Shown here one piece after another: positions 9,154 to 28,233 of a stretch of 64,000 nucleotides of DNA. The DNA comes from a virus. The notes below the pieces were generated by a model. That model had not been told where the DNA came from and searched no databases. It worked only from the letters and a program-made list of their open reading frames with translations. Position 1 is the first letter of the stretch. Each line of letters begins with the position of its first letter. The stretch is from IMG/VR virus record IMGVR_UViG_3300033233_000015, positions 46,082 to 110,081 of that record; one strand, given 5' to 3'. Position numbers and translations under genes: made by a program.

Positions 9154-9339
9154 ATGAGCAGGGGCGCCCAACGCGACGAGACGATCCTTCTCCAGCAGAT
9201 GGTCGACGCCATCCGCGAGTCGCGAGGCCAACCTCCTCTCTACGCGACCGATCGCGAGACGTACCACGTGTACCCCGATCCAACCGCGAGCCGAGATTTT
9301 CTTCCGTCCGGCATGAAGCGCAGTCGCGTCTATCAGTGA
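9154..9339 (+). CDS. hypothetical protein, 61 aa
   Basis: Small soluble protein starting MSRGAQRDETILLQQMVDAI and ending in a basic tail. It is the last + strand gene of the first block and converges, with a 7-base overlap, on a minus-strand mini-gene. Not recognised. Confidence 0.5.
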   Translation: MSRGAQRDETILLQQMVDAIRESRGQPPLYATDRETYHVYPDPTASRDFLPSGMKRSRVYQ

Positions 9340-9422
9340 CGAGCCCACACCCACGCGAGCGCGATGACGACCGCGATCGATCCCAAGATGACGATCGCGA
9401 CGAGGACCACGCCCTCCTTCAC
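9333..9422 (-). CDS. 29-residue membrane peptide
   Basis: GTG start (9422) overlaps the stop of the upstream minus gene as GTGA. The product is one transmembrane helix (VVLVAIVILGSIAVVIALAW) with a short basic end (ARH). This is typical of tiny virion or holin-like membrane peptides. Confidence 0.5.
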   Translation of the reverse strand: MKEGVVLVAIVILGSIAVVIALAWVWARH

Positions 9423-10390
9423 GAGAAGGCTCGGCGGAAGAAGTCGACGACACCGCCCACGACAGCGCCAACGAGGGCGCCGACGGGACCTCCGATCGCA
9501 GCTCCGACCGCTACGCCTCCCGCGATGATCGCCACGTCGCTAGCGCCCGATCCTTTCGTAGCGACCATCGGCGAACGAAGACCTGCCGTGCACATCATGC
9601 CGACCTTCGTCTGCACAGCGACGCAGTTGTACGGCGCGATTCCTGGCTGACGACCGACGAGCAGTGGCTTGCCGTCATGAACCATGAGACCGCAGAGCTC
9701 GGGATCGCTCATCACATCGACCGTGTCTCTTGGGGTGCCGTCCACGATGCAGTAGCGACTGAGGAGTCCCTGCGCGATCCCCACATAGTCGTCCTGATCG
9801 GTGCCGTGAAACGGGGGCCACCAGTAGCCTTGGATGACTCCGATGCTCGGTTCGCTCACCGTCTTCGCGACCTTGACCCCGAGCCAGGTCGTCCCTCCGG
9901 GCTGCGGCACGTACTGGCCGTAGTTCTCGGCCTTGCCAGGATAGCTGGCGAGCTGGTTGTCGATGATCCACGGCTTGCCGGGACCGAAGAAGAGCCCACC
10001 CGAGTAGCCCGCCTTCACGAGCGCGTCGTCGAGCATCTTCGAGTTCGTTCGCATCGTCGAAACGAACATCATCTCGTTCGTCGTGAGATGCATCATTCCG
10101 AGCGTGATCGGCGTCACCGTCACCGCGCGTTGCATGTACGCGAGGTCCGAGAGACGCGCGGTGAGGAACGTGCACTCAAGGATGTCCGCCACCCGCTGCA
10201 TGATGCGTGCGCCCATGCCCGGATAGAAGCCGTCGATCTTGATCGGCGTCGAGGTCACGTAGAACGTCGCGGTGTGGTTCTTGTACGAGCTCGTGATGGG
10301 CGTGAACGTGACCTGAGCCTGCCCGTTCTTCACGGCGTCGAGGACGAGAGCTTCGTAGGCGGGATCGCTTGCTGACTTGGGCCAGTTCAT
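9419..10390 (-). CDS. putative virion protein with C-terminal glycine-zipper membrane anchor
   Basis: 323 aa, start at 10390 in ATGA overlap with the upstream gene. The body is beta-rich with several aromatic motifs (GYSGGLFFGPGKPWIID; GVIQGYWWPPFHGTDQDDYV). The last 40 residues form a glycine-zipper membrane segment (GGVAVGAAIGGPVGALVGAV) ending in FFRRAFS. No enzyme motif is seen. The body-plus-anchor plan recurs in many genes of this window. I suggest a structural or entry protein; the family is unknown. Confidence 0.55.
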   Translation of the reverse strand: MNWPKSASDPAYEALVLDAVKNGQAQVTFTPITSSYKNHTATFYVTSTPIKIDGFYPGMGARIMQRVADILECTFLTARLSDLAYMQRAVTVTPITLGMMHLTTNEMMFVSTMRTNSKMLDDALVKAGYSGGLFFGPGKPWIIDNQLASYPGKAENYGQYVPQPGGTTWLGVKVAKTVSEPSIGVIQGYWWPPFHGTDQDDYVGIAQGLLSRYCIVDGTPRDTVDVMSDPELCGLMVHDGKPLLVGRQPGIAPYNCVAVQTKVGMMCTAGLRSPMVATKGSGASDVAIIAGGVAVGAAIGGPVGALVGAVVGGVVDFFRRAFS

Positions 10391-10806: not shown

Positions 10807-10822
10807 CGCTCAGGAGCGTAAC

Positions 10823-12071: not shown

Positions 12072-12550
12072 GCTCGCCCCAGGATCAGATTCTCGGCTTC
12101 CAGCCGGAATCCAAGGTTTCGATCGACGCCCGGCATTGGGAGTCTCTCAAGCGCATCGTGTGGCGCATGAAGACGTCGTGGGGCTTCGTCGAGAGCGAGT
12201 GCCGCGACCTCATCGCTTCGTGCCAGCACGCTGAGGGATGTTTGGGAGCCGACGACATTCGAGAGCCGTGCCTGTCGTCGTGTCCCGACAGGCAGACCCG
12301 CCTCTCGGCGCTCGTCATCTACGCCAACGCGCGCGAGTTCATCTCCGTGAACGCGCCCAAGCCCACCTCGATCGAGGGCGGCGGATACATCCCGCCGACG
12401 CGTGAGTTCTTCGATCTCGTTCTGAGCGAGCTCGTCGTCGCGCACGCCGAGCTCGACGACATGAAGAAGTTGATTCAGGAATCGGGCGCGACTCTTCCGC
12501 CCACCGTCAGTCCGCCCGTCCTCCCCCCAAAATCGGAGCCTCAACCGTGA
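12068..12550 (+). CDS. hypothetical protein, 160 aa
   Basis: ATGA overlap at its start. Contains a Cys cluster (CRDLIASCQHAEGCLG, CLSSCPD) in the middle, a helical segment and a Pro-rich C-terminus. Unknown family. Coupled to the GroES-like gene by GTGA. Confidence 0.55.
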   Translation: MSSPQDQILGFQPESKVSIDARHWESLKRIVWRMKTSWGFVESECRDLIASCQHAEGCLGADDIREPCLSSCPDRQTRLSALVIYANAREFISVNAPKPTSIEGGGYIPPTREFFDLVLSELVVAHAELDDMKKLIQESGATLPPTVSPPVLPPKSEPQP

Positions 12551-12903
12551 ACATCGAGCTCGATCCGCAAGCCAACATCATCATCGCCCGCCTCATCGAC
12601 ATGCAGCGCACCGAGAGCGGCATCATCATGCCCGACACGCAGATCAAGGGCGTCACCGTCTTCGCGCTCGTCGAGCGAATCGGTCCCGACGTCAAGCGAT
12701 GCAAGCCCGGCGATGTCATCCTTCCTCGAGCGGTGGAGCACTGCTGGCTTCGGGGTGGTACATTCCATCGCGCGCTCATTCAGGACGAGCACGTCGTCGC
12801 GATCGTCAAGAACGGCTTCAACCGCGAGCACATGAAGTTCGTGGACGAGCGCATCGCGGCGGGCGACGACGGCGGTGGTAAAGAAAAGAGGCTGGTCACG
12901 TGA
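12547..12903 (+). CDS. GroES-like co-chaperonin fold protein
   Basis: 118 aa. The order ANIIIARLIDMQRTESGIIM, FALVERIGPDVKRCKPGDVI and IQDEHVVAIV follows the GroES/Cpn10 beta-barrel: strand pair with an SGIIMPD mobile loop, a KPGD turn and a terminal DEHVVAIV strand. Phages encode such proteins (T4 gp31 type) to assist folding of the capsid protein with host GroEL. Its place in the virion operon supports that role. A C-terminal extension of about 25 residues is extra. Confidence 0.7.
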   Translation: MNIELDPQANIIIARLIDMQRTESGIIMPDTQIKGVTVFALVERIGPDVKRCKPGDVILPRAVEHCWLRGGTFHRALIQDEHVVAIVKNGFNREHMKFVDERIAAGDDGGGKEKRLVT

Positions 12904-14042
12904 AACTCGAAGCGGTGTACGAACGTCGCAGAGAAGTTCGCCGGCCACGCCGCGCAGCGTCGCCGTGCGGATGTGGATGCGCAGCGTCACCGCGAGGAGT
13001 CGTTCCGCCGCCAGCGCCGCGCGCGCGCGAGGTCCGACGAGAGGTTCGCGATTTCGGTTCGATGCTCGACGCGCTCGAGGCTGCGAAGGCTCAGGGCGCG
13101 ACACATGCGCTGCAGAGCGGATACGCCGTCTACTTCCCGATCTCCGCTGCGGCGGGGTACGACCACTGCGCCATCTATCAGAGACTCGGCAAGTGGCACA
13201 TCGAAGCGCCAGGCAAGAAGAGCAGAGGTCCGCTTCCCACGCTTGCGGTCCCGATCGGTGATCTGATCTTCTCTCTTCAAGGGCGCGGCGCGAGAGAGGC
13301 CGATCCGCCAGGCGGTCCAGTTCTGCGAGTCGGATCGACCATCGTTCTGCCCGCTGGACATCGCGTCGGTATGGGTCGTCTTCGCAAGGACACGACGGTT
13401 CGGATCGATCGAATCGAGAACGACTCCGAGGGAGCCCCGATCTACGGGTTCTCTTGGATGGATGAGAGAGGCAAGGCCCGAAGCGGGTGGCTCTCGCAGA
13501 GCGAAGCGCTTCAATACGTTCGACGTGGCGGTTTCTCTCACGAGTCACCCTCGCGCGAGATCGAGTCGGAGTGCCGTCCGTACCTGAAGATCGAGCGCGA
13601 CGAGAAGCGTTTCCGTGCGTGCCAAGCGATCGCCGATCGCATCGGGCCAATCGACTCGACCGAGAAGTCGTACGAGGTGCTTCGGCAGGCGGTTGGTCAC
13701 GAACTCGCCGAGCGGTTCGGTGTGATGACGATGGACACGCACTTGAAGCTCCGCGACATCGCCGAGACCGGGGCAGGCGAGACGGACGCCGTGATGGCGC
13801 CGAAGGTGCCGACGCTTCAGGCCGCTCTCCTCTCGTCGCCGACGTACGCGATCATCTATCACGTGCATCCCGCCGCGAGCGAGAGGCCGAGCGATGCGGA
13901 TGTCGAAGTGACCAAGGACTTCGCGAAAGCGTTCGCGGAGGTCGGTGTGCCGCTACTCGATCACATCATCATCTCGACGGGATCGAAGAAGGGGCACTAC
14001 TCGTTCGCCGAGTCGAAACCGAAGACGCTTCAAGTGGAGTGA
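12900..14042 (+). CDS. protein with C-terminal RadC/JAB (MPN) domain
   Basis: 380 aa from a GTG overlapping the GroES-like stop. The last 100 residues hold the JAMM metal motif of RadC proteins: YAIIYHVHPAASERPSDAD, then KAFAEVGVPLLDHIIIST and HYSFAE. The first 50 residues are Arg/Pro-rich and may not be real; ATG 13062 is an alternative start. The middle is a beta-rich domain not recognised. RadC-type JAB domains are metallohydrolase-like but their physiological reaction is unsettled; fused to a phage protein this could be a processing peptidase. Confidence 0.65.
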   Translation: MKLEAVYERRREVRRPRRAASPCGCGCAASPRGVVPPPAPRAREVRREVRDFGSMLDALEAAKAQGATHALQSGYAVYFPISAAAGYDHCAIYQRLGKWHIEAPGKKSRGPLPTLAVPIGDLIFSLQGRGAREADPPGGPVLRVGSTIVLPAGHRVGMGRLRKDTTVRIDRIENDSEGAPIYGFSWMDERGKARSGWLSQSEALQYVRRGGFSHESPSREIESECRPYLKIERDEKRFRACQAIADRIGPIDSTEKSYEVLRQAVGHELAERFGVMTMDTHLKLRDIAETGAGETDAVMAPKVPTLQAALLSSPTYAIIYHVHPAASERPSDADVEVTKDFAKAFAEVGVPLLDHIIISTGSKKGHYSFAESKPKTLQVE

Positions 14043-14045
14043 TCG

Positions 14046-14492
14046 ATGTCGAACCAACAGCAGCAGCAGACCAAGACGCTCGAGATTCCGAAGGCCGAGT
14101 ATCCGATCGTCAACAGGGTTATCACCGATCATCCGTTTCCGACGGAACCCGTACAGGGAGTGCCCGTCGATCCTCATCGCCCGGCAGCGCTGATCTGGAA
14201 TCTAGGGTCACCGCATCCGATCGTGAACAACCTCAAGATCGTGCGCATGTACGTGGTGCCCGGAATCAGTGCAGAGATTTACAGCGCGAGCGAGGACGGG
14301 AAAATGGGCGTGCGCAACGCGATCCCGTGGCCGCAAATTCGCGTCGTAGAAGAGGTGTGCGACGCCGAGTCGTTCGTCGCGGAGATTGTCGCGGCCGAGC
14401 GGGACGACGACGACGACGACGATCCCGATCCCGAGCCTGCGCCCACTCCGCTCGTGGCTCTTCAACCAATGCCGAACGGTGGAGTTTCCTGA
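14046..14492 (+). CDS. hypothetical protein with acidic tail, 148 aa
   Basis: Starts MSNQQQQQTK after GGAGTGATCG. A beta-rich core (IVRMYVVPGISAEIYSA) is followed by a polyaspartate run of seven residues and a Pro-rich tail. Such acidic tails occur on virion scaffold or decoration proteins. Not recognised. Confidence 0.55.
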   Translation: MSNQQQQQTKTLEIPKAEYPIVNRVITDHPFPTEPVQGVPVDPHRPAALIWNLGSPHPIVNNLKIVRMYVVPGISAEIYSASEDGKMGVRNAIPWPQIRVVEEVCDAESFVAEIVAAERDDDDDDDPDPEPAPTPLVALQPMPNGGVS

Positions 14493-14830
14493 TGCCTCCC
14501 ACGACCGCGACGCTCGTCTATAGAGTGACGCCGACGAACGTCCTTCCGACCGCGACGATGCAGGCGAAGATGGCGGCAGTTCCGCTCTACGCAAGCGCGC
14601 TGACCGACCCGGTGCTCAAGACGCTGTTCGACTGCACGGTGGCATCCGATGCGACCGCGCCCGCAGGACCGAACATCGATCGCACCATCGTGCTCAACTT
14701 GGGCGCGGGGTTCTTCTCTCTCTTCCCGACCGCTGCCGATTGGGCAACGGCGTTCAACGATCTCTTCGGCAGAACGCTCGCTCTTCTTCTTCCGGCGCAG
14801 GTGAAGAGCCTTCCGGTGGTGTTCGCATGA
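14492..14830 (+). CDS. hypothetical protein, 112 aa
   Basis: ATG shares one base with the previous stop. Beta-rich, low-charge sequence (TATLVYRVTPTNVLPTATM; IDRTIVLNLGAGFFSLF) typical of small virion components. No family recognised. Confidence 0.5.
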   Translation: MPPTTATLVYRVTPTNVLPTATMQAKMAAVPLYASALTDPVLKTLFDCTVASDATAPAGPNIDRTIVLNLGAGFFSLFPTAADWATAFNDLFGRTLALLLPAQVKSLPVVFA

Positions 14831-16263
14831 GCGGTGACGGCAGACGTGACGGCAGACGACACCGCGGCGTGGCCGCTCCTCCCGAGCACGAAATCGTCGA
14901 CGAACTCTCCGAAGAGATCGAGGACAACGGAGAGACGCGCGCGGTCGCAAACGAGGAGACCGTCAAGCGCGAAGGTGCGCTCAACGCGGAAGCGGTGCAA
15001 AGCAACCGCCGGCGGAAGTCCATCGAGAACAAGAAGAGGGGTGGTGCCGGGACAGTTCCCTGGAACGAGTCTCGAGCGCCGCTTCTCTACGACGACATCA
15101 TCGCGCTCTACCCGCCGAACACGTTGATGATCTACGTCGAGCGTCTCTCGGGCACGCTCGCGAGCTGGTACTTGTACGGACAGCCGAAGAGCGGTCACGA
15201 GCTCTATCAGGCGATCCTCAAGCAGTGTCACGGGCGAAAAGAGGAGACCGAGTACCGCGTCGTCTTCCGCGATGCGCAGCGGAAGTTCGAACGAGGCATC
15301 GGTCGGCTCACGCTTCCGTCGACGCTCGACGACGCTACGCTCCCCGTGCAGCCTCAGGGAATGGGGATGCCGAACGGCGTGCCGCCCGCGAACTACGGGC
15401 AGCAAAACGGCTACGGTCAGCCGAACGGATATCCGCCGCAACAGCCGCCGCAGAACAACGGCTACCCGCAACAGCAGCAGCCTCCGCCGCAGAACTATCC
15501 GCAGCAAGCACCGCAGTTCGCGCAGCAACCGATGCAGCCGATGCAGCCGCAGTACGCGGGTCACTCACCGCAGGAGACGCAGGTGCTCCTCGACATGCAG
15601 CGGCAGATCGCCGAGATGAGCGGGCGAGTGACCGCGTACCTGACGCAGCAACCGATGCAGACGCCGCCTCAGCAAGATCAGCATCGACCGATCTACGATC
15701 GGCCGTCGCCGCGCTACAACGGAAGCGTCGTACCGCCCGCTCCTCAGCCTCCGCCGCAACAGGCCATGCAGCCTCCGCCGGGGATGTACCACGTCCCCGG
15801 ATTCGGCTTCGTCCCCACCGCGAAGCTCATGGAAGCGATGGGAGTCGTCGGGCCTCAGCAGCAGCAGGCTCCAGCAGCTCCTCCGCAGCCCCCGAGGAAC
15901 GCTGCCGACGAGTTCCGAAGCGCGATCGGTCTCATGACCACGGTCGCCGATGCCGCGCGCACCGTGCAGTCGATTTTCCCTAGCGCAGCAAGCGCGCCCG
16001 CGGCGCCGGCCGCTAGAGAAGACGACGATCTGCCGATGAAGACGATCAAGTACGGCGACTTCAACACGGTCGTGAACAAGGAAGACGGCAGCCTGCGGAT
16101 TCCAGACACGATCGCCGCGAACGGCGAGAAGATCCTCGGTTGGATCGAGAAGCAGCGCAAAGACATCCAAGCCCAACGCCAGCAACCTCAGTCGATACCC
16201 GAGCAACCGCCTCAGAACGGCATGATGCCGATGCCGCAGTATCCCGGAGAACAGCAGCGATGA
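14827..16263 (+). CDS. Gln/Pro-rich scaffold-like protein, 478 aa
   Basis: ATGA overlap start. Residues 1-70 are charged; residues 75-160 form a folded domain (TLMIYVERLSGTLASWYLYG then HELYQAILKQCHGRKEE). Residues 170-400 are low-complexity with Pro, Gln, Tyr, Asn and Gly repeats, interrupted by a helix (QETQVLLDMQRQIAEMSGRV). The C-terminal 90 residues are folded again. The layout recalls scaffolding or linker proteins; I cannot name a family. Confidence 0.55.
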   Translation: MSGDGRRDGRRHRGVAAPPEHEIVDELSEEIEDNGETRAVANEETVKREGALNAEAVQSNRRRKSIENKKRGGAGTVPWNESRAPLLYDDIIALYPPNTLMIYVERLSGTLASWYLYGQPKSGHELYQAILKQCHGRKEETEYRVVFRDAQRKFERGIGRLTLPSTLDDATLPVQPQGMGMPNGVPPANYGQQNGYGQPNGYPPQQPPQNNGYPQQQQPPPQNYPQQAPQFAQQPMQPMQPQYAGHSPQETQVLLDMQRQIAEMSGRVTAYLTQQPMQTPPQQDQHRPIYDRPSPRYNGSVVPPAPQPPPQQAMQPPPGMYHVPGFGFVPTAKLMEAMGVVGPQQQQAPAAPPQPPRNAADEFRSAIGLMTTVADAARTVQSIFPSAASAPAAPAAREDDDLPMKTIKYGDFNTVVNKEDGSLRIPDTIAANGEKILGWIEKQRKDIQAQRQQPQSIPEQPPQNGMMPMPQYPGEQQR

Positions 16264-16746: not shown

Positions 16747-17304
16747 ATGCGGGTCTACAACGTGCAGCCCGGCGACAGCCCGGCGTCGATCGCAATTTCG
16801 TACGCTGGATGCCCAAAATGTTCGATCGATCTCGTCTCCGTGAATCCGCACAAGCCGACCGTTCGCTATCCGAACGGCTACGTGACGTTCAAGGATCTGC
16901 GCGCGGGTGAGCGGCTCTGGCTCCCCGACAAGTGGTTCAGCGGCGCGCTCGATGATTTGCCGAGCGAATATTTCGCATCGCTGCCGAGCGCCGACGGATT
17001 TCTGGCCGATCCACGGCCGAACCTGCCGCCGCCGCAAAAGGGGCCGTCCGGTCCTCCGGACTATCCGAAACCTCCTCCTCTGATCATCTCGCCCGTGGCA
17101 CCGTATCGGCCGCCGCCCTTGGCGCCGGTGCCCGATCCGTCCAAGCAGAAGCCGCCGAACGCTGGTGGCGGAGGATCGGCGGGCGGCGGAACCCCAGGAG
17201 AGACGACGCCGTCGGAGTCGGGCATGAGCACCGGAGCGAAGGTCGCCATCGGATTCGCAGTCGCCGCAGCAGGAGGGTTCGCACTATGGACTTTGGCGAA
17301 GTAA
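16747..17304 (+). CDS. LysM-domain protein with Pro-rich linker and C-terminal membrane anchor
   Basis: 185 aa. Residues 1-60 form a LysM-like wall-binding domain (YNVQPGDSPASIA ... GERLWLP) carrying a CPKC insertion. Residues 85-160 are Pro/Gly-rich and extended. The C-terminus is a transmembrane helix (VAIGFAVAAAGGFALWTLAK). The product would bind peptidoglycan while fixed in a membrane, fitting a virion spike or entry factor. A related LysM domain lies at 27082. Confidence 0.7.
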   Translation: MRVYNVQPGDSPASIAISYAGCPKCSIDLVSVNPHKPTVRYPNGYVTFKDLRAGERLWLPDKWFSGALDDLPSEYFASLPSADGFLADPRPNLPPPQKGPSGPPDYPKPPPLIISPVAPYRPPPLAPVPDPSKQKPPNAGGGGSAGGGTPGETTPSESGMSTGAKVAIGFAVAAAGGFALWTLAK

Positions 17305-17511: not shown

Positions 17512-18153
17512 ATGGACTTCGGGAGCGAACTCTCTTTCGGTGGTCGTTCCGTCGAAGGATTCGGGCTCGGCACGTTTCTTCGCCAGCCGTCCGTCGAGGA
17601 TCTTCGCAACCTCATCAACGCCAAAGACTACGAGCTGAATCAAATCTACAAGCACTACATGGCCTTCTGGCAGATGTGGGAGACCGTAGATTTGCCGGCC
17701 AAGCTCGATTGGGCCAACGACTGGAACGCGCTTCTCGCAAGATACAAGAAGGCAAAGGAGACCGCGCAGTGGGCGTTCGACAAGGCGGCGGGGCAGCCGT
17801 GGCCGGACTCGGTCATCCTGGCTCCCGACGAATGGAACACCGTGCTTCGAGCGCTGAGAAAAAATTGGGACGGCAAGACGGGGGGTACGCTGGAGAAGGG
17901 TGATGAGGCCGATCTCGAATTTCGCCTTTCGGCTGCGAGCCACAAGAGCAGCGACTTCTCGCACGAGCCGCAACCGACGGGCGACGTCGATCTCGAGATT
18001 TTCAAAGCCGCCGACAAGGCGACCAAGGGGATCGAAACCGTCGCGGGTAAAATCGCCAACTACGTCCCGATCGGACTCGCCATCGGGGCAGGCATCTTGG
18101 TGCTCGTAGCGGGGGCCTACGTCATCGCTCTCTTGCCCAAGTCGAGATCATGA
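17512..18153 (+). CDS. membrane-anchored protein with GGRSVEGFG tag, 213 aa
   Basis: Starts MDFGSELSFGGRSVEGFGLG, the clearest copy of the N-terminal tag. A helical body with many aromatic residues (YKHYMAFWQMWETVDLPAK) follows, then a C-terminal transmembrane segment (IGLAIGAGILVLVAGAYVIA) and the tail LLPKSRS. Likely a virion membrane protein. Confidence 0.6.
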   Translation: MDFGSELSFGGRSVEGFGLGTFLRQPSVEDLRNLINAKDYELNQIYKHYMAFWQMWETVDLPAKLDWANDWNALLARYKKAKETAQWAFDKAAGQPWPDSVILAPDEWNTVLRALRKNWDGKTGGTLEKGDEADLEFRLSAASHKSSDFSHEPQPTGDVDLEIFKAADKATKGIETVAGKIANYVPIGLAIGAGILVLVAGAYVIALLPKSRS

Positions 18154-19198: not shown

Positions 19199-19872
19199 AG
19201 CGTGCATGGATCGTCGCCGGCGGAGCGGGAATCGCCATCGCGACGGTAGCGATCGTGAGGTCTCGACACGCGCGCGCGCAGTCGAGACCAGACTTCAATC
19301 GCTCCGTGCTTGCTCGAGCCGAAAGCGATCTCGGTGTCATCGAGACGTCACCCAACAGCGGGCCACGCGTGGACGAGATGCTGAGATCGGTCGGGATCAA
19401 CGTACCCGCCAACTGGTGCGCGGCGGCCGTGTCGACATGGGTTCGGGAAGCAGCGCGCGAGCTCGGCGTTGGCGTGCCCATCGCGGGGTCTGCGAGCGTG
19501 CTTTCGATCGTTCAAGAGATGCGCGATCCGAACAACCCAAAGGTCGGATGGATCGAAACAACAGACCTGCGCGCGCATCCTGAGCGCGTGCGGCCAGGGA
19601 TGATCGTGGCGTGGACGCGCGGTCTGCCTGGCAGCGGCTTGGGACACATCGGTATCGTCGAGAGCAGCGACAGCCGAGGCGCGTTCGTACACATCGACGG
19701 CAACGCGGGCGCTAACGCTGATCGCGTCGCCAAAGGCACAAGCGATCTCTCGAGCGCGTCGCTGATCGGGATGGGGTTCTTCCGCGACATCGCTGTCGGA
19801 CTCGGCGACTACAACTTCGCGCTCGGCTACTACAACGATCCGCCGGGGGCTCTCCTTTTTCCGCTATCCTGA
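19195..19872 (+). CDS. CHAP/NlpC-like peptidoglycan hydrolase with N-terminal membrane anchor
   Basis: 225 aa. Residues 4-22 form a transmembrane segment. The catalytic layout is cysteine-amidase/endopeptidase-like: NWCAAAVSTWVREAA provides the Cys, GHIGIVES the His, and VHIDGNAG a possible third residue. Such enzymes cut cross-bridges or the amide bond in the wall. A membrane-tethered lytic enzyme beside capsid genes fits genome delivery through the cell wall rather than lysis, but either is possible. Confidence 0.7.
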   Translation: MKRAWIVAGGAGIAIATVAIVRSRHARAQSRPDFNRSVLARAESDLGVIETSPNSGPRVDEMLRSVGINVPANWCAAAVSTWVREAARELGVGVPIAGSASVLSIVQEMRDPNNPKVGWIETTDLRAHPERVRPGMIVAWTRGLPGSGLGHIGIVESSDSRGAFVHIDGNAGANADRVAKGTSDLSSASLIGMGFFRDIAVGLGDYNFALGYYNDPPGALLFPLS

Positions 19873-19877: not shown

Positions 19878-20537
19878 ATGATCGAGAAGCCCGTACCTGG
19901 CGTCCTCGCGAGACCTCACCCCGGCGGCAAACGCGGAGCGATGATCTCGCTCGACGAGACCGCGAAAGGCGCGTGGCGCGATCGGATGTCGCCGCGGCTT
20001 CGCGCGTGGGCTACGCAGCAGCTCGACAAGTGTGGCCGTCCCACGGGGAAACGCGCACGCGTGCAGTGCCTCCTCGACGCCTTCCGCAAGAAGGTGCCCT
20101 ATCTGGCCGATCCGAAGTGGGGTGAGTTCATCGCGAGCTCCGACCAGCTTCTCTGCGTGGACGAAGACAAGAACCTCTGCTTCATCGGCGCCGACTGCGA
20201 AGAGCACGCTCGAGCGATGGCGGCCCTCTGTCTCTGCATCGGGATTGACGCGATGATCGTGGGCCAGTCGTCACGAGATCCCGCCGACGTCCCCACGCAC
20301 GTCTACTTCGCGTTCAAAGACGATCTCGATTCGTGGGTCCGAGGCGACTCGACGACGACGTATCCGGTGGGCAGGGTCGCTCCGTACCTTCGCGAGTGGT
20401 GGGTCGATCCGTCCGAGGGTGTCGCTGAGGCGGGGCTCGGCGACATCGTCGTGATGGGCGCCACGGATGGTTTGCAGGATGCACCTAAAAATGGTGCGGT
20501 CTACACGGGTCGATACGCGGGGCTGTTCTCGAAATGA
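19878..20537 (+). CDS. transglutaminase-like cysteine protease fold protein
   Basis: 219 aa. The triad pattern is clear: CVDEDKNLCFIGADCEEHA gives the Cys-Glu-Glu-His element (compare GDCxDxA), THVYFAF the His, and WVRGDSTTTYP the Asp. In phages such domains act as proteases or crosslinking enzymes near head genes. TATCCT ends 7 bases before the ATG, another possible leaderless start. Confidence 0.65.
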   Translation: MIEKPVPGVLARPHPGGKRGAMISLDETAKGAWRDRMSPRLRAWATQQLDKCGRPTGKRARVQCLLDAFRKKVPYLADPKWGEFIASSDQLLCVDEDKNLCFIGADCEEHARAMAALCLCIGIDAMIVGQSSRDPADVPTHVYFAFKDDLDSWVRGDSTTTYPVGRVAPYLREWWVDPSEGVAEAGLGDIVVMGATDGLQDAPKNGAVYTGRYAGLFSK

Positions 20538-20968: not shown

Positions 20969-22387
20969 ATGGCGTCCTACGCGGATTGGCTCTCAGAGAT
21001 GTCTCGACGGCGACCTCGCCGTCGTCGCGCTCGACGATCCGCCGCGCCCGTCGCCTCTTCCCGATCCTCTACATCCCGAACGTCGCCGAAGCGTCCTGCG
21101 AAAAAAAAGAAGACCAAGCAAACCGCCGGCTCCGGCGGACGTAAAACGAAACAAGGAGTGACCATGGCCCGTCGCCGTCGCCGAAAGCACGCCAAGAGCC
21201 CCGTCGCAGAGACCCGTCGTCGTCGCCGGCGAGCCGCAGCCCCGAAACGTCGTCGCCGTCGGGCGCGAGAAGCGGCGGTGGCGCAAGCTCCGCGTCGGCG
21301 TCGTCGCGCGCGTCGTCGCGCGGCACGGTCGTGGTTCGGCAACGCCCCCGGACATCGTCGAGCCGCGAAGAAGGGCTGGCGTAAGAAACGCAGCAGCGGT
21401 CGTCGGCGTCGAAGCCGCGAGGTGAGCGAGGCTCCGCGCCGCCGCCGCCCGAGCCGTCGTCGGGGTCGTCACTACCGAGAGGCCGCGCACGAGGCGCGTC
21501 GCGGCGGGTACTCCCGACGTCGGCGCCACGCGCGCAACAACCCGGCGATGAACGGAGGCGAGCTCGCCATCGCGTTCATCGCGGGCGGTCTCGGCTTCAC
21601 GCTCGCCGACTTCGCCGATCGGTACTTCGCCACGTACGATCCGTCGGCGACGGGCGAACTGCCGAAGGACAAGTTCACGGGCGGCAACGGCACGATGGCG
21701 AACACGCTCAACATCGCCGCGCCGCCAGGCTTCCTTCGAATCGGCGTCGGCGTCGCGCTGACGGCTCTTCCGGGGGTCGGCGCGTACCTCGTCAAGAACT
21801 CGATGGCGAAGGCCGCGCTCCACGGCATGATGATCGGCGCGGGCATCAAGCTCTTCTCGACGCTCTTCAATGCGTTCGTGATGGGCAACCTGCTCAAGCC
21901 GGGACCGCAGGACGATCCGAAGAAGTCGCTCGGAGCGCGCCTCTACCCGGCCGAGATCACCGCGGCGCAGAACATGTCGAACAGCCCCGCGACGATGGCC
22001 TCGCCGTTCAACCCCGGCCTCGCGGCTCGTCCTCAGCAACGCGACGTCGGACCCTTCGCACTCGCGCAGGATCCGAGCGCGTTCGCTCCCGCACCGAGCG
22101 CGCCGCCCGTGAACGTCGCGCCGAGCCCTCCGCCCGTGAACGTGGACAGACCGCCATCGAACGGCGGCGGTCCGCCCGTGAACGTGGACAGACCGCCATC
22201 GAACGGCGGCGGTCCGCCCGTCGTCATGAGCCCGCCCATGGGTCCGCCGCCCTCGAGCGGACCGCCCGCGCGATCGGGCGGATCCTGCCCCGCCTGCAAA
22301 GGCGAGAGCGGGGCGTGCGGCTGCCTCGGATCGCAACCTCAAGCGCAGACGAACTACGCCTACCTCGGCGTCATCAACGAATCGTGA
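20969..22387 (+). CDS. arginine-rich DNA-condensing membrane protein
   Basis: 472 aa; an internal ATG at 21164 with a strong AAGGAGTGACC site may be the main start. Residues 10-190 are protamine-like, with dozens of Arg in RRRR clusters. Then come two membrane segments (GELAIAFIAGGLGFTLADFA; VGVALTALPGVGAYLV) and a further hydrophobic helix. The C-terminal third is Pro/Gly-rich with a perfect 42-bp tandem repeat and ends in a Cys-rich CPACKGESGACGC. The protein could tie genome DNA to an internal membrane. It precedes the capsid gene. Confidence 0.65.
   Translation: MASYADWLSEMSRRRPRRRRARRSAAPVASSRSSTSRTSPKRPAKKKKTKQTAGSGGRKTKQGVTMARRRRRKHAKSPVAETRRRRRRAAAPKRRRRRAREAAVAQAPRRRRRARRRAARSWFGNAPGHRRAAKKGWRKKRSSGRRRRSREVSEAPRRRRPSRRRGRHYREAAHEARRGGYSRRRRHARNNPAMNGGELAIAFIAGGLGFTLADFADRYFATYDPSATGELPKDKFTGGNGTMANTLNIAAPPGFLRIGVGVALTALPGVGAYLVKNSMAKAALHGMMIGAGIKLFSTLFNAFVMGNLLKPGPQDDPKKSLGARLYPAEITAAQNMSNSPATMASPFNPGLAARPQQRDVGPFALAQDPSAFAPAPSAPPVNVAPSPPPVNVDRPPSNGGGPPVNVDRPPSNGGGPPVVMSPPMGPPPSSGPPARSGGSCPACKGESGACGCLGSQPQAQTNYAYLGVINES
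22131..22214 (+). repeat. perfect 42-bp tandem duplication
   Basis: Two identical 42-base units (22131-22172 and 22173-22214) encode PVNVDRPPSNGGGP twice within the Pro-rich part of the arginine-rich protein. Exact identity points to recent duplication or slippage. Confidence 0.9.
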
Positions 22388-22443: not shown

Positions 22444-23694
22444 ATGGAAGCTCAAGTGAAGAAGTCGATGACGAAAGCTCGGTTCGGCCAGGACCGCGAT
22501 CGGGTGAAGCGCGTTCCCTTCGGTCTCGGCGACGCGCCAAGCTCCGACGCGCTCAACAAGACGCTCCGTTGCTCCTTCGGCAACGTGCCCGTCATCGAGG
22601 AGGTCGTTTGGACGATTCCTCTCCCGCTCTCCGAAGCGGAAGCGCAGAGCACGTTCGGCGACATCATCAACGTGCTCACCTCGCAGGCGAACGTGCCGGG
22701 TGTCGCGTCGATCGACTCGACGTTCCTGCTCAACGGCATCCTGCAGACGGACCTCTACACGCAGGGCGTCGGCGTGCACGTCTTCTGCGAGCCGATGCAG
22801 CTCGCGACGATCGGCAACGCTTGGACGTCGCCGCCCACGGCCGGCGCCGTTCCGCCGCCGTCCCCCGACGTCTTCACGCTGAACGATGTCGCCGGCGGCG
22901 CGCTCGGTCTCGCGCAAGGCACCACGATGGTGCCCGCCGCCTTCGATTGGGGCGGCGAGGTGTGGCGCGCGGGCTGGAACTTCATCAACGCGTACCAGTT
23001 CCAGTGGAAGACGAGCCAGCGCGAGCTCGTCTTGAACGAGCTGGCGGCCGACGTCTCGTACTTCGGCAGCTTCGCGGACGCGGAGGCGGCGGGCACCAGC
23101 GAGTTCCCGATCGCGGAGCTCGTCGCGCGCACGAACGCCGTCTACCGCTCGAAGGCGTCGGGGTTCACCTTCCTCCCCGTGAACTTCCGCCGCGTCGGAA
23201 GCGTCACGGTGGCGGCGGCCAACGTCGGCATCTTCCACCCGACGCGCGACTTCGACCTCGCGCCCGTCACCTGGGGCGGTCTCCGCTGGCAGGGGTACGG
23301 CTGCAAGGGTCAGATGTACCGGATGATCGAGAACCCGTGCTTCCTCGAGCGCGCGATTCCGATCGGCATGCAGTTCATCGTGCAGGATCCGGTGCACCAG
23401 GCCGCGATGCTCGAAGCGCTCACGATGGACAACTCGCTGCTCGGGACGAACATCAGCCCCGACACGAACATCAGCTGCGCGAACACGACGACGGGCGCGA
23501 ACGTCATGCTCGAGCAGACGCTCGACTCGCCGCCCGTGAACACGCCGCAGCAGGTGACGCTCTGCCGTCAGGTCTTCAAGGGCGGCATCCTCAAGATCGG
23601 CATCAAGCTCAAGGGGTGGGAGTTCCCCGCTCCGTGGCGTCTCTGGTGCCAGCAGAACGCGCCGCAGCTCGTCTCCTGCCCCGCGCAGAGCTGA
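22444..23694 (+). CDS. candidate major capsid protein, 416 aa
   Basis: A beta-rich protein of uniform composition with very G/C-rich third codon positions, as expected for the most expressed gene. Landmarks: CSFGNVPVIEEVVWTIPLPL, VGVHVFCEPMQL, NAYQFQWKTSQRELVLNELA, SKASGFTFLPVNFRRVGSVT, LKGWEFPAPWRLW. It is flanked by a 5' hairpin and a strong 3' terminator-like hairpin, and followed by two paralogous beta-barrel-like proteins. There is no HK97-type prohead protease or delta-domain signature. The length suits a double jelly-roll protein, but the fold cannot be proven from sequence alone. Confidence 0.55.
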   Translation: MEAQVKKSMTKARFGQDRDRVKRVPFGLGDAPSSDALNKTLRCSFGNVPVIEEVVWTIPLPLSEAEAQSTFGDIINVLTSQANVPGVASIDSTFLLNGILQTDLYTQGVGVHVFCEPMQLATIGNAWTSPPTAGAVPPPSPDVFTLNDVAGGALGLAQGTTMVPAAFDWGGEVWRAGWNFINAYQFQWKTSQRELVLNELAADVSYFGSFADAEAAGTSEFPIAELVARTNAVYRSKASGFTFLPVNFRRVGSVTVAAANVGIFHPTRDFDLAPVTWGGLRWQGYGCKGQMYRMIENPCFLERAIPIGMQFIVQDPVHQAAMLEALTMDNSLLGTNISPDTNISCANTTTGANVMLEQTLDSPPVNTPQQVTLCRQVFKGGILKIGIKLKGWEFPAPWRLWCQQNAPQLVSCPAQS

Positions 23695-23768: not shown

Positions 23769-24455
23769 ATGCTGCCGCGTGACCTCCAGATAAAGAATCT
23801 CGCTTGGATCTCCCCCAAGATCGCCTACGGTCTCGTGGCGCAGGTTCCCCGTGTGCCGTTCGTCGGTCCCATCACGACGAACCCCGGCGTTCCGTCGCCC
23901 GTCGTACCGATTCAGTTCACCGCGAACTGGCTCGCTCCGCCCGCGCTGCCTCCGGGCAATCCGCCGAACAACATCGGCATCAACCCGATCATCCAAGGCA
24001 CGCTTCAGAACAACGTGACGCAGGACACGCTGATCGAGCGCATCGTGTACTCGCTCTGGCAACCGAACGCGTTCTCGACGCCGCCGTCTCCGTTCCAGAC
24101 GCTATACCTGTCGCAGCTCAAGAGCTCCACGGGCGTCGATGTCCTGCTCGATGTCTACGGAAGCCCGAAGTACCGCGTGTGCGACTTCTTGCCGCTCGAG
24201 AACCTCGCTGACGTGCTCGCCGTCACGTGGCCCAACGGATGGCCGCTGCGCAAGCAGGAGAACGTCAAAGTGCAGGCCGTGCTCACCAGACCGCAGCCCG
24301 GAACGGTCGAAGCCCCCGTCGGCATCCCGTACTTCGTGAACATGGCGCTCGTCGGATGGCAGTTCGTCGGGAAGGAGATCGACGACATGTCCGACGACGA
24401 GGCGCGTCGGCGTCTCAAAGCGATGGGGATCGAAGTCCCTGAGGTGCCGCGATGA
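23769..24455 (+). CDS. probable beta-barrel virion protein, paralogue A
   Basis: 228 aa, ATG 23769 after CAGGAGAG. It aligns along its length with the next gene: RDLQIKNLAWISPKIAYGLV against RDYNVKNLALYAPRVAWAMI, then NVTQDTLIERIVYSLWQ, FQTLYLSQLKSSTGVDVLLD, WPNGWPLRKQENVKV, ALVGWQFVGKEIDDMSDDEA and RRRLKAMGI. Regular beta-strand spacing and a charged C-terminal helix suggest a single jelly roll with a docking tail. Probably a second capsid or penton-type component. Confidence 0.6.
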   Translation: MLPRDLQIKNLAWISPKIAYGLVAQVPRVPFVGPITTNPGVPSPVVPIQFTANWLAPPALPPGNPPNNIGINPIIQGTLQNNVTQDTLIERIVYSLWQPNAFSTPPSPFQTLYLSQLKSSTGVDVLLDVYGSPKYRVCDFLPLENLADVLAVTWPNGWPLRKQENVKVQAVLTRPQPGTVEAPVGIPYFVNMALVGWQFVGKEIDDMSDDEARRRLKAMGIEVPEVPR

Positions 24456-25075
24456 TCGACCGCGACTACAACGTGAAGAACTTGGCGCTCTACGCGCCGC
24501 GCGTCGCGTGGGCGATGATCGCGGGCATTCCGCGCGTCGCGTTCGCGGTGGACGTGCCGATTCAGTTCTCGTCGGCGACCGTCAACGCTCCCCCCGTCGT
24601 CGGGAGCTTTCAGAACTCGCTCACGCAGGACACCGTCATCGAACGTGTCTCGTTCTCGCTCTTCCAGCAGAACACGTTTCCGGGCTCTCCCTTCCAGACG
24701 CTCTACTTCGCGATGGCGAAGGCGATCAGTGGCGTCGGCGTGCAGATGAGCGTCTACGGGGGGCCGAAGTACAACGTGAACGACACGTTCACGGCGCTAG
24801 AGAACATGGCCGACGTGCTCGCGATCACGTGGCCGAGCGGATGGCCGCTCTACAAGGGCAGCAACGTCAAGGTGACGGCGGCGCTCCTCCAGACGCCGTT
24901 CTCGACGCCGTACGACGTGAACCTCACGTTCCTTGGCTGGCAGTTTCTCGACGCCGAGCTCGACGCGATGAGCGACTCGGAAGCTCGTCGTCGTTTGCGG
25001 GCGCTCGGACTCGAGTCACCCGATCTCGCATCGCTCATCGGATCAGGGGGCGCGACGGCGCCACACAAGGAGTGA
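24452..25075 (+). CDS. probable beta-barrel virion protein, paralogue B
   Basis: 207 aa, ATGA overlap with paralogue A. Shared blocks: SLTQDTVIERVSFSLFQ, FQTLYFAMAKAISGVGVQM, WPSGWPLYKGSNVKV, LTFLGWQFLDAELDAMSDSE and RRRLRALGL. It lacks the Pro-rich insertion near residue 60 of paralogue A. The tandem pair arose by duplication and diverged, as in viruses with two related small capsid proteins. Confidence 0.6.
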   Translation: MIDRDYNVKNLALYAPRVAWAMIAGIPRVAFAVDVPIQFSSATVNAPPVVGSFQNSLTQDTVIERVSFSLFQQNTFPGSPFQTLYFAMAKAISGVGVQMSVYGGPKYNVNDTFTALENMADVLAITWPSGWPLYKGSNVKVTAALLQTPFSTPYDVNLTFLGWQFLDAELDAMSDSEARRRLRALGLESPDLASLIGSGGATAPHKE

Positions 25076-25078: not shown

Positions 25079-25561
25079 ATGGCATTTCGAATCGGTAGAA
25101 AGCACGCGCAGCACACGTACCCGGAGCCGAACAGGGGCAGCCAGGCGTTGTCGCTGGCACATGGGTGGGCGGACAACCCGACCGACGTAGCGATCGGGGT
25201 GGGAAATACCACCGTCGCGAGCGTGCCCGTAACCCCCAAAGTCACCGGCAAGTTTCGTGTGACGGCGACGTTCACGCCGACGAACACGGACACGGGCGTG
25301 CCGCACAACATCGTGCCGCTTCTGCGCCACGCGGGAGCACCGCCCGTCACCGACTACACGCCGGGGACGCCTACGCGCCTCGAAGTGGCGGCCGCGGGCA
25401 ACGAGGCCATCGCGACGGGCGCGTTCACGTTCGAGTACACCGTCGCGTTTCCGGTAGGTCAACCGGTCACGCTTCTCCTCACGCTCTCGGACGCGGCCTC
25501 GCCTGGGGTGACGGTCTTCGCGCACTCCGCGCAGCTCCTCGTCGAAGAAGTGGGGAACTGA
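25079..25561 (+). CDS. beta-rich virion-like protein, 160 aa
   Basis: ATG 25079 after AAGGAGTGAGTC. From residue 35 it reads as an immunoglobulin-like beta sandwich (GNTTVASVPVTPKVTGKFRV; AFTFEYTVAFPVGQPVTLLL). Likely a small decoration protein. Confidence 0.55.
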   Translation: MAFRIGRKHAQHTYPEPNRGSQALSLAHGWADNPTDVAIGVGNTTVASVPVTPKVTGKFRVTATFTPTNTDTGVPHNIVPLLRHAGAPPVTDYTPGTPTRLEVAAAGNEAIATGAFTFEYTVAFPVGQPVTLLLTLSDAASPGVTVFAHSAQLLVEEVGN

Positions 25562-25574: not shown

Positions 25575-26453
25575 ATGAACAACGTCATTCGCCTTCAAGA
25601 CAAGCGCGGCGGTGTGGGGACGAACCTCCCCGGCGCGGCGGTGTGTCGAGGGCGATACGAAATCGTGTCCGCGTCGCTCGATCCCGATCTCGCGTTCATC
25701 GGAAGCGATCCGTACAACACGAGCGACTTCACGGGCGTCATCGTTCCTGCGGTGCCGTCGTCCTTTCTTGGCACCGGTCAGCGCTATCTCTTCATGCTCG
25801 CGCGCGCGCAGTTCAGTTCGGGACAAGAGGGGGTTCATCTAGTTGGTGTCCGCCTCTACGCTGATCTCGTCGCGCGCGTTCCGCAAGAGGACGCTCCCAC
25901 GCTCGTCTTTCACAAGGAGATCACGCACCCGATGTTCCATCCACCCGATGGCAACATCTCGTTCCATGTGATGGTCCTCGACAAGACGTGGCGCGACAGA
26001 AGGAACGCGTTCAACGCAGACACGAGGACGTTCCAAGACAGCTTCTCTCCATCGCTGCTCTTTCAGACGCCCGAAGCTGCGGGCTACACGCCGCCGAACG
26101 GCGGACGAGCCTGGGGAACTCCGCTCGACGCCTCACTCGGCAACATCCACGAGCTCCGATGGCCGTGGCGAGACAGCAAGATCGAGCACACCCTGCGCGT
26201 GCCCATCCCCATCCCGAGCGACATCGCCATCTTCGCGTCGGTCAGGCAGAACGATCCCGCTATGAACCCGAGCGCGGCCGGGTTGTCCGCGCAGCAGTTC
26301 GCGGCGCTCGATCCTGAGGAGCAGTTCCTCACTTCGTTCTTTACGGTCGCGCAGTACGGGCGCATCTCCGCATCGCTCGTCTTCGAGGGGGATTCGTTTT
26401 TGTACGGCAGCGAGGGATGCAAGTCCGAGGACTCGCGGGAGAAGTGCCGATGA
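25575..26453 (+). CDS. beta-rich virion-like protein, 292 aa
   Basis: No membrane segment or catalytic motif. Beta-rich with aromatic and Pro motifs (HPMFHPPDGNISFHVMVLD; LRVPIPIPSDIAIFASV). Its position in the capsid operon suggests a structural role. The C-terminus is Cys-containing and charged. Stop overlaps the next ATG. Confidence 0.55.
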   Translation: MNNVIRLQDKRGGVGTNLPGAAVCRGRYEIVSASLDPDLAFIGSDPYNTSDFTGVIVPAVPSSFLGTGQRYLFMLARAQFSSGQEGVHLVGVRLYADLVARVPQEDAPTLVFHKEITHPMFHPPDGNISFHVMVLDKTWRDRRNAFNADTRTFQDSFSPSLLFQTPEAAGYTPPNGGRAWGTPLDASLGNIHELRWPWRDSKIEHTLRVPIPIPSDIAIFASVRQNDPAMNPSAAGLSAQQFAALDPEEQFLTSFFTVAQYGRISASLVFEGDSFLYGSEGCKSEDSREKCR

Positions 26454-27082
26454 GGTGCCCGTACGTGCAGAACATGGTGACGGGGCAGGTCGAGAGCGAA
26501 CCTGCTGGACCCAATGATGCGGGCATCGAGCGTTCGCTCCGATGTTTCGCCGAGTACATCAACAGCATGGGGCTCGGAGACGGAGGAAACATGATTTCGT
26601 ACGGTGGACGCCCCGTAGCGGGCTTCGGTGTGCTCGACAACCTCGGCCTCTCGGGTGCCGACATCTACAACGCTCTGTCCAGCGATCAGCGGACGTGGCT
26701 CGCCTCGGCGATGCAGACGTTCGAAGGAGCTCGCAGGGACGCTGGCGCGTCGGCGTGCCCGGAGTGGCCGCAGACGTTTCAGACGGTCGCGGACTTCCAG
26801 GCAGCCGTCGCGTGCACGCAGGCGTGGATCAACGCCGGCAACCCCGGCCTTCTTCGCACCGACGGCGTCATGGACGAATCCACGCTCTGCGCGATCCAGT
26901 TCGAGGCGTACAAGATGCCCCCCTACGCGCAGAACAGATTCCCCGATCCGTCGGGCAAGTTCTGCAAGTCGATGACGACGACGGAGAAGAAGTCGAACAC
27001 CGTCTACTACGTCGCTGGCGGCGTCGCGGCGGCGCTGGCCGTCGGCGCGGCGATCGTCTACTCGAGAAAGCGAGCTGCGTGA
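26450..27082 (+). CDS. membrane-anchored protein with GGRPVAGFG tag and PG-binding-like region
   Basis: 210 aa from ATG 26450; an in-frame ATG at 26591 with a perfect GGAGG site would give the shorter form MISYGGRPVAGFGVLDN, putting the tag at the N-terminus as in its relatives. Residues about 115-160 (TQAWINAGNPGLLRTDGVMD, then STLCAIQ) recall peptidoglycan-binding repeats. The C-terminus is a transmembrane helix (VAGGVAAALAVGAAIVY) with the tail SRKRAA. Confidence 0.6.
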   Translation: MRCPYVQNMVTGQVESEPAGPNDAGIERSLRCFAEYINSMGLGDGGNMISYGGRPVAGFGVLDNLGLSGADIYNALSSDQRTWLASAMQTFEGARRDAGASACPEWPQTFQTVADFQAAVACTQAWINAGNPGLLRTDGVMDESTLCAIQFEAYKMPPYAQNRFPDPSGKFCKSMTTTEKKSNTVYYVAGGVAAALAVGAAIVYSRKRAA

Positions 27083-28233
27083 TGCTCGACTACAAGGTCC
27101 GTCATGGCGACTCGCCCGCCGCCATCGCGCGCCGCTACGGCGTGTCGGTGACCTCGCTCGTCGGGGCGAACCCGCAGAAGCACACGACCGTCGTCGCGGG
27201 TCAGCAGACGTGGCGCTCCTTGCACATCGGAGAGGTCGTGCGCGTTCCGTCGGCTCGAGTCGGGCTCGCGGGACAGACTTCGGTGGACGTCGGTGCGTCA
27301 CCCATCGGATCGAAGACGCCGACGATCACCGCGTTCATTACGAACTCGGATCAAGCAACCATCGGCGGCGACGTGCAGTTCTTCGTGGACGGGAACTTCG
27401 TTGGCGCCGCTTCGGTCATCCCTCAAGGCGGCGGCAGTTCGACCGCAAGCGTGACCCTCGCCGACGAGCTCTCGCCCGGTAACCACACGTTCGATGCCGC
27501 GTACTCGGGAGATCCTTCGAACGACGCGGGCCGAGGATCGGTGACGTTCTCGGTCGCAGGCGGCGGTGGCGGAGGCGGCGGAGGTCGCTACTCGAGCACG
27601 ATCGTCGCTGCCGCGCAGGCGCTCGACGCGCAACTCGTCGCGAAAGGCTGCTGCGGCTGCGGCGATGCGGCGTCTGCCCTCAGCGCAGTGGTCATGGCCT
27701 TCAAGAGATCGATCCTCACGAACCCCTCGCAGTGGGGCGTCCCTGGCATCGGAAACGCTGCCACCGTGACGGGCAGCACGATCGACGTCTCGAACGATCA
27801 GTGTCAGCACGCGTTCGGCAACGGCACGATCAACGATCTGCGTGCCGTGCTCGGATCGGGCATGCGGTACTCAGGCGGTCCGTGCGCGACGTGGAACGGA
27901 GCAGGTAACTGCCCGTGCACGAACACGGGCTCGAACTGCGGACAGCAGCCGCCTTCGCAGACGTTCCCGTGTCCGGCAGGAACCGTCAAAGAGGGTCAGC
28001 AGGTCGCGAACATCCTCACCGACTGCGGCGGCCCGAAGCAGCCTCCGCGCGGCTGCTCGACGAACAACCCCTGCCCGTCAGGTCAGCAGTGCCAAAGCGG
28101 CCAGTGCATCACGCCTCCGAGCTCGGGCGGAGGCGGCGGAAGCGCGGGCGCGCTTCTCGCTGGCGTCCTGCTCGTTGGCGGCGGCATCGCAGCCACCACG
28201 ATCGCCATGAAGAGAAAGAAGCGTCACCCGTGA
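27082..28233 (+). CDS. LysM / Ig-like (Big) protein with C-terminal membrane anchor
   Basis: 383 aa. Residues 1-55: LysM (YKVRHGDSPAAIARRYGV ... GEVVRVP). Residues 60-160: a bacterial Ig-like repeat (GGDVQFFVDGNFVGAAS; LSPGNHTFDAAYSGDPSND). A polyglycine hinge and a Cys-rich region follow (CCGCG, CPCTNTGSNC, CPSGQQCQSGQC), then a transmembrane helix and basic tail KRKKRHP. A wall-binding stalk fixed to a membrane fits a receptor-binding or penetration spike. Confidence 0.7.
   Translation: MLDYKVRHGDSPAAIARRYGVSVTSLVGANPQKHTTVVAGQQTWRSLHIGEVVRVPSARVGLAGQTSVDVGASPIGSKTPTITAFITNSDQATIGGDVQFFVDGNFVGAASVIPQGGGSSTASVTLADELSPGNHTFDAAYSGDPSNDAGRGSVTFSVAGGGGGGGGGRYSSTIVAAAQALDAQLVAKGCCGCGDAASALSAVVMAFKRSILTNPSQWGVPGIGNAATVTGSTIDVSNDQCQHAFGNGTINDLRAVLGSGMRYSGGPCATWNGAGNCPCTNTGSNCGQQPPSQTFPCPAGTVKEGQQVANILTDCGGPKQPPRGCSTNNPCPSGQQCQSGQCITPPSSGGGGGSAGALLAGVLLVGGGIAATTIAMKRKKRHP

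Follow-up and report, generated by a model that had tools for sequence, protein, structure and literature searches.

Gene content suggests a lineage of large tailless, membrane-containing viruses behind a 110-kb virus record

The virion-like module and its relatives

The window examined here, a stretch of 64,000 nucleotides of viral DNA, corresponds to bases 46082-110081 of a 110,081-bp IMG/VR virus record (IMGVR_UViG_3300033233_000015), over the whole of which 191 genes were called. Comparison with relatives showed that a virion-like gene module spans window positions ~12,000 to ~32,000; a preliminary description, made from the sequence alone, had proposed that a block inside this region belongs to a large tailless virus with a membrane. 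The module includes a gene (22444..23694) for a 416-aa protein with the N-terminal sequence KRVPFGLG, which is the most conserved protein of the lineage and the candidate for the major capsid protein. IMG/VR was scanned with this protein and its distant homologues as queries, and the result sets converged. About 33 other IMG/VR records encode the capsid candidate, falling into three groups at 43-71% identity. The record of the window and 18 relatives that were fetched essentially whole made up a comparison set of 19 genomes, to which further pieces were added.

Circular assemblies are typically recognised by direct repeats at the two ends of a contig. Such repeats, exact and 87-127 bp long, were present in 11 records (G007, G008, G011, G012, G020, G022, G025, G027, G028, G030 and G031). 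Moreover, the module of G012 is split over both ends: its transglutaminase-like gene lies at 3.2 kb, and the module gene that follows is found at the opposite end. The gene order c124|c125-c126 of G011 runs on from one end into the other. Because of the end repeats and this continuity of gene order, the 11 records appear to be complete, with circular maps of ~60-127 kb. The record of the window lacks such an end repeat and probably does not cover a whole genome. The last 240 bases of the record (109842-110081) recur internally at 19186-19425 with 98.8% identity, so the assembly probably broke at this repeat. The preliminary description had remarked that a genome above 64 kb would be new for this type of virus; the block sits in a 110-kb record and the complete relatives reach 127 kb. 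No provirus, host or relative carrying the capsid candidate came up when 84,980 genomes of bacteria and archaea (GTDB) were scanned twice, and no description of a lineage of large tailless phages was found in the literature searched, coverage of which was incomplete. The records thus appear to represent a previously unrecognised lineage of large bacterial-type viruses.

Iterated profile searches identified the families that are present in all 19 genomes (JAB, c104, c106, LysM, transglutaminase-like, c116, the capsid candidate, the second beta-type protein and c121), while c105 was found in 18 of them. The gene order of the module is largely kept. All module genes of the window described here lie on the + strand. 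A GroES-like co-chaperonin (12547..12903) was matched weakly by phrog_3188 (E 0.0016), and its profile finds 12 of the 18 relatives. It is followed by a RadC-like JAB (JAMM metallopeptidase) protein (13062..14042; Pfam RadC, E 5e-21; 19/19 genomes), in which the HxH...PSxxD signature is conserved, and by three core proteins: one with an acidic C-terminus (14046..14492; 19/19), one found in 18/19 genomes (14492..14830), and a Pro/Gln-rich protein with a basic N-terminus (14827..16263; 19/19) that is possibly associated with DNA.

A LysM-family protein with a C-terminal transmembrane (TM) anchor (16747..17304) was recognised by its profile and has copies in 19/19 genomes. Two tail-anchored TM proteins come next, with the N-terminal sequences GGRSVEGFGLG (17512..18153) and GGRPVRGFGLE (18494..19198), and then a CHAP-domain wall hydrolase with an N-terminal TM helix (19195..19872; Pfam CHAP, E 6e-5, under the curated cut-off). 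The adjoining transglutaminase-like cysteine peptidase (19878..20537; Pfam Transglut_core, E 1e-6) is a candidate maturation protease, and the DC and H positions expected for a papain-like active site are conserved across the 19 genomes. Directly upstream of the capsid candidate lies a core protein (20969..22387, with its start at 20969 or 21548; 19/19) that has a hydrophobic N-terminal part and a Pro-rich tail.

Downstream of the capsid candidate are two copies of a second beta-type, capsid-associated protein (23769..24455 and 24452..25075), candidates for a penton or minor capsid protein. They had been described as tandem beta-barrel-like proteins and are indeed paralogues; one profile matches both. 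Copy 2 is found in 19/19 genomes (57-68% identity within group 1) and gave no phage match. Most relatives have a single copy, adjoining the capsid candidate. The next genes encode a small protein (25079..25561), predicted from sequence and position to belong to the virion, whose N-terminal HTYPEP resembles the spike docking motif described below, and a syntenic core protein found in 19/19 genomes (25575..26453). In G013, the module also holds an additional, partial copy of the capsid candidate, in a 213-aa gene upstream of the capsid gene.

Membrane proteins, shared motifs and candidate spikes

The window had been noted for many proteins with one terminal TM helix and a basic tail. A uniform hydropathy rule for a single C-terminal TM helix was applied to all genomes alike. 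Nine of the ten proteins that had been listed (those at 9419, 16747, 17512, 18494, 26450, 27082, 35899, 39523, called here from 40855, and 46953) have such a helix, mostly with a short basic tail, while the tenth, at 10387, has a weaker hydrophobic C-terminus and falls just under the cut-off. Across the 19 genomes, 114 of 561 genes (20%) within 12 kb of the capsid candidate encode C-terminal single-TM proteins vs. 103 of 2233 (4.6%) elsewhere, an enrichment with a Fisher p of 7e-29. When the same rule was applied to the annotated genes of reference phages, it was positive for 8/25 genes of PRD1 and 3/14 of PM2 but for 0/21 of lambda and 0/24 of T7. The likeness to PRD1 and PM2 that had been proposed thus holds for the density of membrane proteins, and the gene-content profile matches that of membrane-containing tailless phages, which suggests that a lipid layer may be present in the particle. 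A second motif, NPL[ST], stands directly before the TM helix in 24 proteins. A further set of TM proteins with NPL[ST], often after an Arg-rich N-terminus, is encoded at record positions 741-19141, upstream of the window, and in G027 and G028.

Several of these membrane proteins carry domains that would act on the cell wall. In addition to the CHAP protein at 19195, a LysM and Ig-like protein with a C-terminal TM helix and a basic tail (27082..28233; Pfam LysM, E 2e-5; Big_3_5, E 4e-7, the Ig-like match being under the curated cut-off) is a candidate wall-binding virion protein, which bears out the earlier assignment of membrane-linked wall hydrolases. It is preceded by a tail-anchored TM protein (26450..27082) that has the motif GGRPVAGFGVL and belongs to a family found in 13/18 relatives. 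A transglycosylase-like hydrolase candidate with a C-terminal TM helix (35899..36582, +; family in 10/18 relatives) was assigned to its enzyme class by eye and has no Pfam match. A further possible wall hydrolase, the Rv2525c-like protein at 33589, is a weak match. The cell-wall hydrolases, as read from their domains, point to bacterial hosts.

Two short N-terminal motifs, neither of them in the preliminary description, recur in the module. Tail-anchored proteins begin with [GN]GRxVxGFGxG, the strict form of which was observed 11 times vs. 0.15 in shuffled N-termini and occurs nowhere else in the proteins. The capsid candidate has RVPFGLG at the equivalent N-terminal place. In group 3, the capsid candidate has GRLIGLGQ and the TM and transglycosylase-like (wall-hydrolase) proteins have RGLGQ, a variant present in 20 of 517 group 3 proteins vs. 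5 of 2055 in group 1. That the motif varies together in shell, membrane and lytic proteins would fit a signal for processing or sorting that they all share. Most likely, it marks a site of maturation cleavage or of sorting, which a viral peptidase may read.

The second motif marks the spike candidates, which begin with IIGRGRYARETYP, continue with collagen-like (GPTGPTG) or other repeats and end in variable heads. This docking motif was observed 27 times vs. 1.6 in shuffled N-termini and is common to the collagen-like spikes of 10 genomes. The layout of the IIGRGRYARETYP proteins would fit a conserved docking peptide on receptor-binding spikes. In the window, one spike or receptor-binding candidate (28970..30331) has the N-terminal docking sequence PFAAQTYP. 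A second (30668..32180) consists of an N-terminal open reading frame (ORF; 30668-30901) that contains IIGRGRYARETYP and an ORF at 30924-32180 that matches the tail protein family phrog_38452 (E 4e-4). The first ORF stops 22 bases before the 418-aa ORF, which resembles a spike body, and the two may be one split gene or two genes.

The capsid candidate, tailed-phage hallmarks and the packaging motor

The capsid candidate had no sequence match in the PDB, even as a profile. By tblastn, it matched none of 50,697 phage genomes, and its homologue L091 matched none of 72,556 plasmids. Neither the candidate nor its neighbours matched a convincing Pfam or PHROG family. The structure prediction that the preliminary description had called for was carried out with AlphaFold for the capsid candidate. 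The window protein with 25 homologues gave a model that was too weak (predicted local distance difference test score, pLDDT, 54.7; predicted template modelling score, pTM, 0.55), and the shorter L091 with a wider alignment of 30 rows gave one that was better but not decisive (pLDDT 68.6, pTM 0.71). The L091 model is rich in strands, with helices of at most 14 residues and two strand-helix-strand units. When it was compared with the PDB by Foldseek, 48 of the 50 matches listed were jelly-roll viral capsids, none of them significant, and the PDB holds many near-duplicate entries for adeno-associated virus (AAV) and papillomavirus. The matches include papillomavirus L1, AAV, picornavirus, nodavirus and PR772 P3, a PRD1-type capsid protein that had the highest probability among the top 50. 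PRD1 P3 and the major capsid protein of STIV (Sulfolobus turreted icosahedral virus) were also among the matches listed, again not significant. The weaker model of the window protein gave a similar but more mixed list. An HK97 fold, which had been named as evidence against a tailless virus, was absent among the Foldseek matches listed for both models. An hhalign comparison of the capsid profile with PRD1 P3 and PM2 P2 gave no signal and was uninformative, as the P3-P2 control failed too, and a profile comparison of the two halves of the candidate found no internal repeat. Jelly-roll capsids dominate the matches listed, and the models are no more than suggestive of a jelly-roll-type fold.

The possibility was considered that the conserved protein has some role other than that of a jelly-roll shell protein and that the particle is membrane-based and non-icosahedral, whether pleomorphic, vesicle-like or of another kind. 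The very large number of single-pass membrane proteins would fit such a particle, as would a capsid candidate with no significant fold match and a packaging motor that is not recognised. However, the predicted fold is rich in strands and its matches are overwhelmingly icosahedral jelly-roll capsids, and the extreme conservation of one 400-aa protein together with a beta-type partner fits a regular shell. This alternative is considered very unlikely.

Tailed-phage hallmarks were searched for in 32 records, 11 of them apparently complete, using profiles for the terminase large subunit (TerL, phrog_2), the portal (PF04860) and the HK97 capsid (PF05065) that gave signal in control genomes. Portal and HK97 capsid were found in 0/32 records, and the terminase family PF03237 was not found in the record of the window. 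Three weak phrog_2 matches resembled helicases of superfamily 2 (SF2), and the two that were inspected were ResIII/SF2 helicases. In the complete 63-kb genome G028, proteins of at least 95 aa matched 20 Pfam families, none of them capsid, portal, terminase or tail. Neither these families nor the PHROG matches listed for G028 (25 of 31 families) include a tail tube, tape measure or baseplate; one match among those listed is to phrog_4577, 'tail protein' (E 4e-7). The lack of terminase and portal genes reported for the window therefore extends to the 32 records and, gene by gene, to G028, and a terminase, portal and tail module elsewhere in the genome, which was to have counted against a tailless virus, did not emerge from these records.

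These results bear on the alternative that the lineage is a highly diverged member of the Caudoviricetes, in which the genes for capsid, portal, terminase and tail are too far changed to be recognised. Some PHROG matches are labelled tail or tail fiber, the wall hydrolases and the RadC/JAB protein are compatible with tail-tip proteins, and the capsid fold leaves room for such a reading. However, TerL, the most conserved tailed-phage gene, is as absent from the 32 records as the portal and the HK97 capsid, no HK97 structure appears among the Foldseek matches listed, and the membrane-protein density is unlike that of lambda and T7. Moreover, the multi-member tail-fiber matches probably reflect collagen-like repeats. 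A diverged tailed phage is judged to be quite an improbable source of these genes.

A search for an FtsK/HerA-type packaging ATPase had also been proposed as a check. P-loop scans of called genes and six frames in five complete genomes (G020, G025, G027, G028 and G030) found neither FtsK/HerA nor terminase, although a motor that has diverged very far could escape these searches. Deviant Walker A motifs, as some terminases have, are missed by a P-loop pattern. The P-loop proteins of the five genomes are helicases, a kinase-like protein, a Sak4-like AAA_24 protein, a primase/D5 protein and AAA+ proteins. P-loop-like strings in G028_070 and G025_082, which are unlike ATPases, were treated as chance. 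A HerA-like ATPase is encoded in a minority of genomes (G005, G011, G012, G019, G022 and probably G001), never beside the capsid gene, so that the search succeeded in some relatives only and failed in at least five complete genomes. This ATPase was not accepted as the packaging motor, being confined to a minority, distant from the capsid gene and not found in several complete genomes. It has C-terminal GGGFNN-type repeats and could be an alternative motor or a defence or segregation protein. The Sak4-like AAA_24 ATPase was likewise rejected as a motor; because it adjoins a Cas4-like exonuclease, a role in recombination is likelier. Packaging ATPases are also undetectable in Odin- and FLiP-group viruses (PMC5894146, PMC8328091). 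As the genomes of these motor-less viruses are small, an unrecognised or host motor seems likelier here than passive encapsidation.

The replication and integration genes of the window include a primase-polymerase/D5-like helicase replication protein (60558..63212, +; phrog_29234, E 3e-61; phrog_1156 primase, E 1e-20) and a tyrosine recombinase (43562..44704, -; phrog_1 integrase, E 1e-10), the family of which is present in 17/19 genomes and in 8/8 of the complete ones that were fetched. An ISXO2/IS1595-like transposase, recognised by eye at 57932-58951 (-), has a counterpart in G020 (55% identity) but in no other of the first ten relatives. Upstream of the window, at record 21590-23863, a RecD-like helicase (G000_033) is interrupted in its N-terminal region, after TFAGYAG and before TGKTT, by an intein-like sequence with an HNH-type insert (CLSGDTVV ... 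GIIVHN). A QueC-like gene (7-cyano-7-deazaguanine synthase, by eye) at record 45359-46036, that is, window -722 to -45, suggests possible DNA base modification.

The tyrosine recombinase, the variable accessory genes and the lack of a universal packaging ATPase would also suit a large circular extrachromosomal element that carries a capsid-like or cell-surface module and is not a classical virus. Borgs provide a precedent, since they have jelly-roll capsid-like genes with no settled packaging machinery (PMC12660748). However, the conserved genes for lysis and wall penetration fit particles, as do the collagen-like spikes with their docking motif. A resident element would be expected to have relatives among the 84,980 genomes or the 72,556 plasmids, where none was found, and Borgs are linear and archaeal. 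Such an element is judged to be unlikely.

The proposed virus and known systems

The gene content, its conservation, the circular maps, the missing tailed-virus hallmarks, the membrane-protein profile and the shared motifs are best explained by large tailless viruses with a membrane that form a new lineage, a reading with a probability of roughly 0.6. What had been surmised from the window is thus partly supported, by the absent hallmarks, the membrane profile and the conserved module. Several points weigh against it. A packaging ATPase universal to the lineage was not found, and JAB plus peptidase proteins occur in tailed-phage tail-tip proteins too. The best Foldseek E was 0.14, with template modelling scores of at most 0.19 among the matches listed, and mean pLDDT was just 55 and 69 in the two AlphaFold runs.

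On this reading, the window would come from the circular dsDNA genome of a large tailless virus and hold its virion genes together with some of those for replication. The shell would be built from the 22444-23694 protein, probably of jelly-roll type, with the protein or proteins of 23769-25075 probably at vertices or gaps. The single-pass tail-anchored proteins would lie in an internal membrane beneath the shell, as in PRD1 and PM2. Host binding would be mediated by spikes with the docking peptide GRGRYARETYP, collagen-like shafts and variable heads, and the wall would be opened by the membrane-anchored LysM, CHAP and transglycosylase-like proteins. The N-terminal motif R-x-[VI]-x-G-[FL]-G (RGLGQ in one sub-group) may be processed by the conserved transglutaminase-like or JAB peptidase. 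Replication would proceed via the primase/D5-like helicase and the Sak4/exonuclease genes. A more far-reaching proposal, that of a realm- or kingdom-level group of bacterial viruses with circular genomes of 60-127 kb, a tailless membrane-containing shell of an unrelated capsid family, no terminase or FtsK/HerA motor and proteins matured at R-x-V-x-G-[FL]-G by a viral transglutaminase-like or JAB peptidase, is tentative, with the odds against it.

The lineage resembles PRD1 (Tectiviridae) and PM2 (Corticoviridae) in that it has no tail genes, a capsid (candidate) gene near many single-pass membrane proteins, separate spike genes and a membrane-anchored wall hydrolase. However, the genomes of PRD1 and PM2 are 10-15 kb, there is no detectable sequence similarity between their capsid proteins and the capsid candidate, and in the lineage no FtsK/HerA ATPase adjoins the capsid gene, with several complete genomes having none at all. 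Replication is of the D5/primase type rather than by a protein-primed polymerase (PRD1) or a replication-initiation protein (PM2), and the collagen-like spikes carry a docking peptide. The complete relatives also lie outside the ~10-15 kb genome size of the Tectiliviricetes, and surveyed prokaryotic tailless double-jelly-roll (tectivirus-like) genomes are ~10-15 kb (PMC5894146). With respect to the Helvetiavirae, defined by two single-jelly-roll capsid proteins and a packaging ATPase, the lineage has two adjacent, conserved proteins of putative beta type and an ATPase in some genomes only. The Odin and FLiP double-jelly-roll groups are similar in that a packaging ATPase is undetected, but Odin genomes are only 7-11 kb and passive encapsidation is hard to imagine at the size of the lineage.

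With the Caudoviricetes, the lineage shares genome size, replication genes (Sak4, helicases, primase), an integrase and collagen-like fibre genes, but it shows no terminase, portal, HK97 capsid or tail module. To our knowledge, all large bacterial DNA viruses are tailed and have a terminase and an HK97 shell. If complete genomes of 60-127 kb do lack tailed-virus parts, bacteria too would host large tailless viruses, and the question would arise of how a 100-kb genome is packed with no recognised motor. Because its proteins match no database family, surveys based on hallmark genes cannot see the lineage; with the profile assembled here, it can be searched for.

Elsewhere, the niche of such large tailless viruses is filled by giant viruses and Borgs. 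The Borgs of Methanoperedens archaea are large and carry capsid-like genes of single-jelly-roll type; their packaging is not settled, and few of their genes can be recognised as viral (PMC12660748). The lineage is like them in being a large prokaryotic element with probable jelly-roll capsid-like genes and unsettled packaging. However, Borgs are linear elements of archaea, with capsid-like proteins similar to those of archaeal HCIV-1, whereas the maps of the lineage appear circular and its capsid family has no detectable relative and no match to solved capsid sequences.

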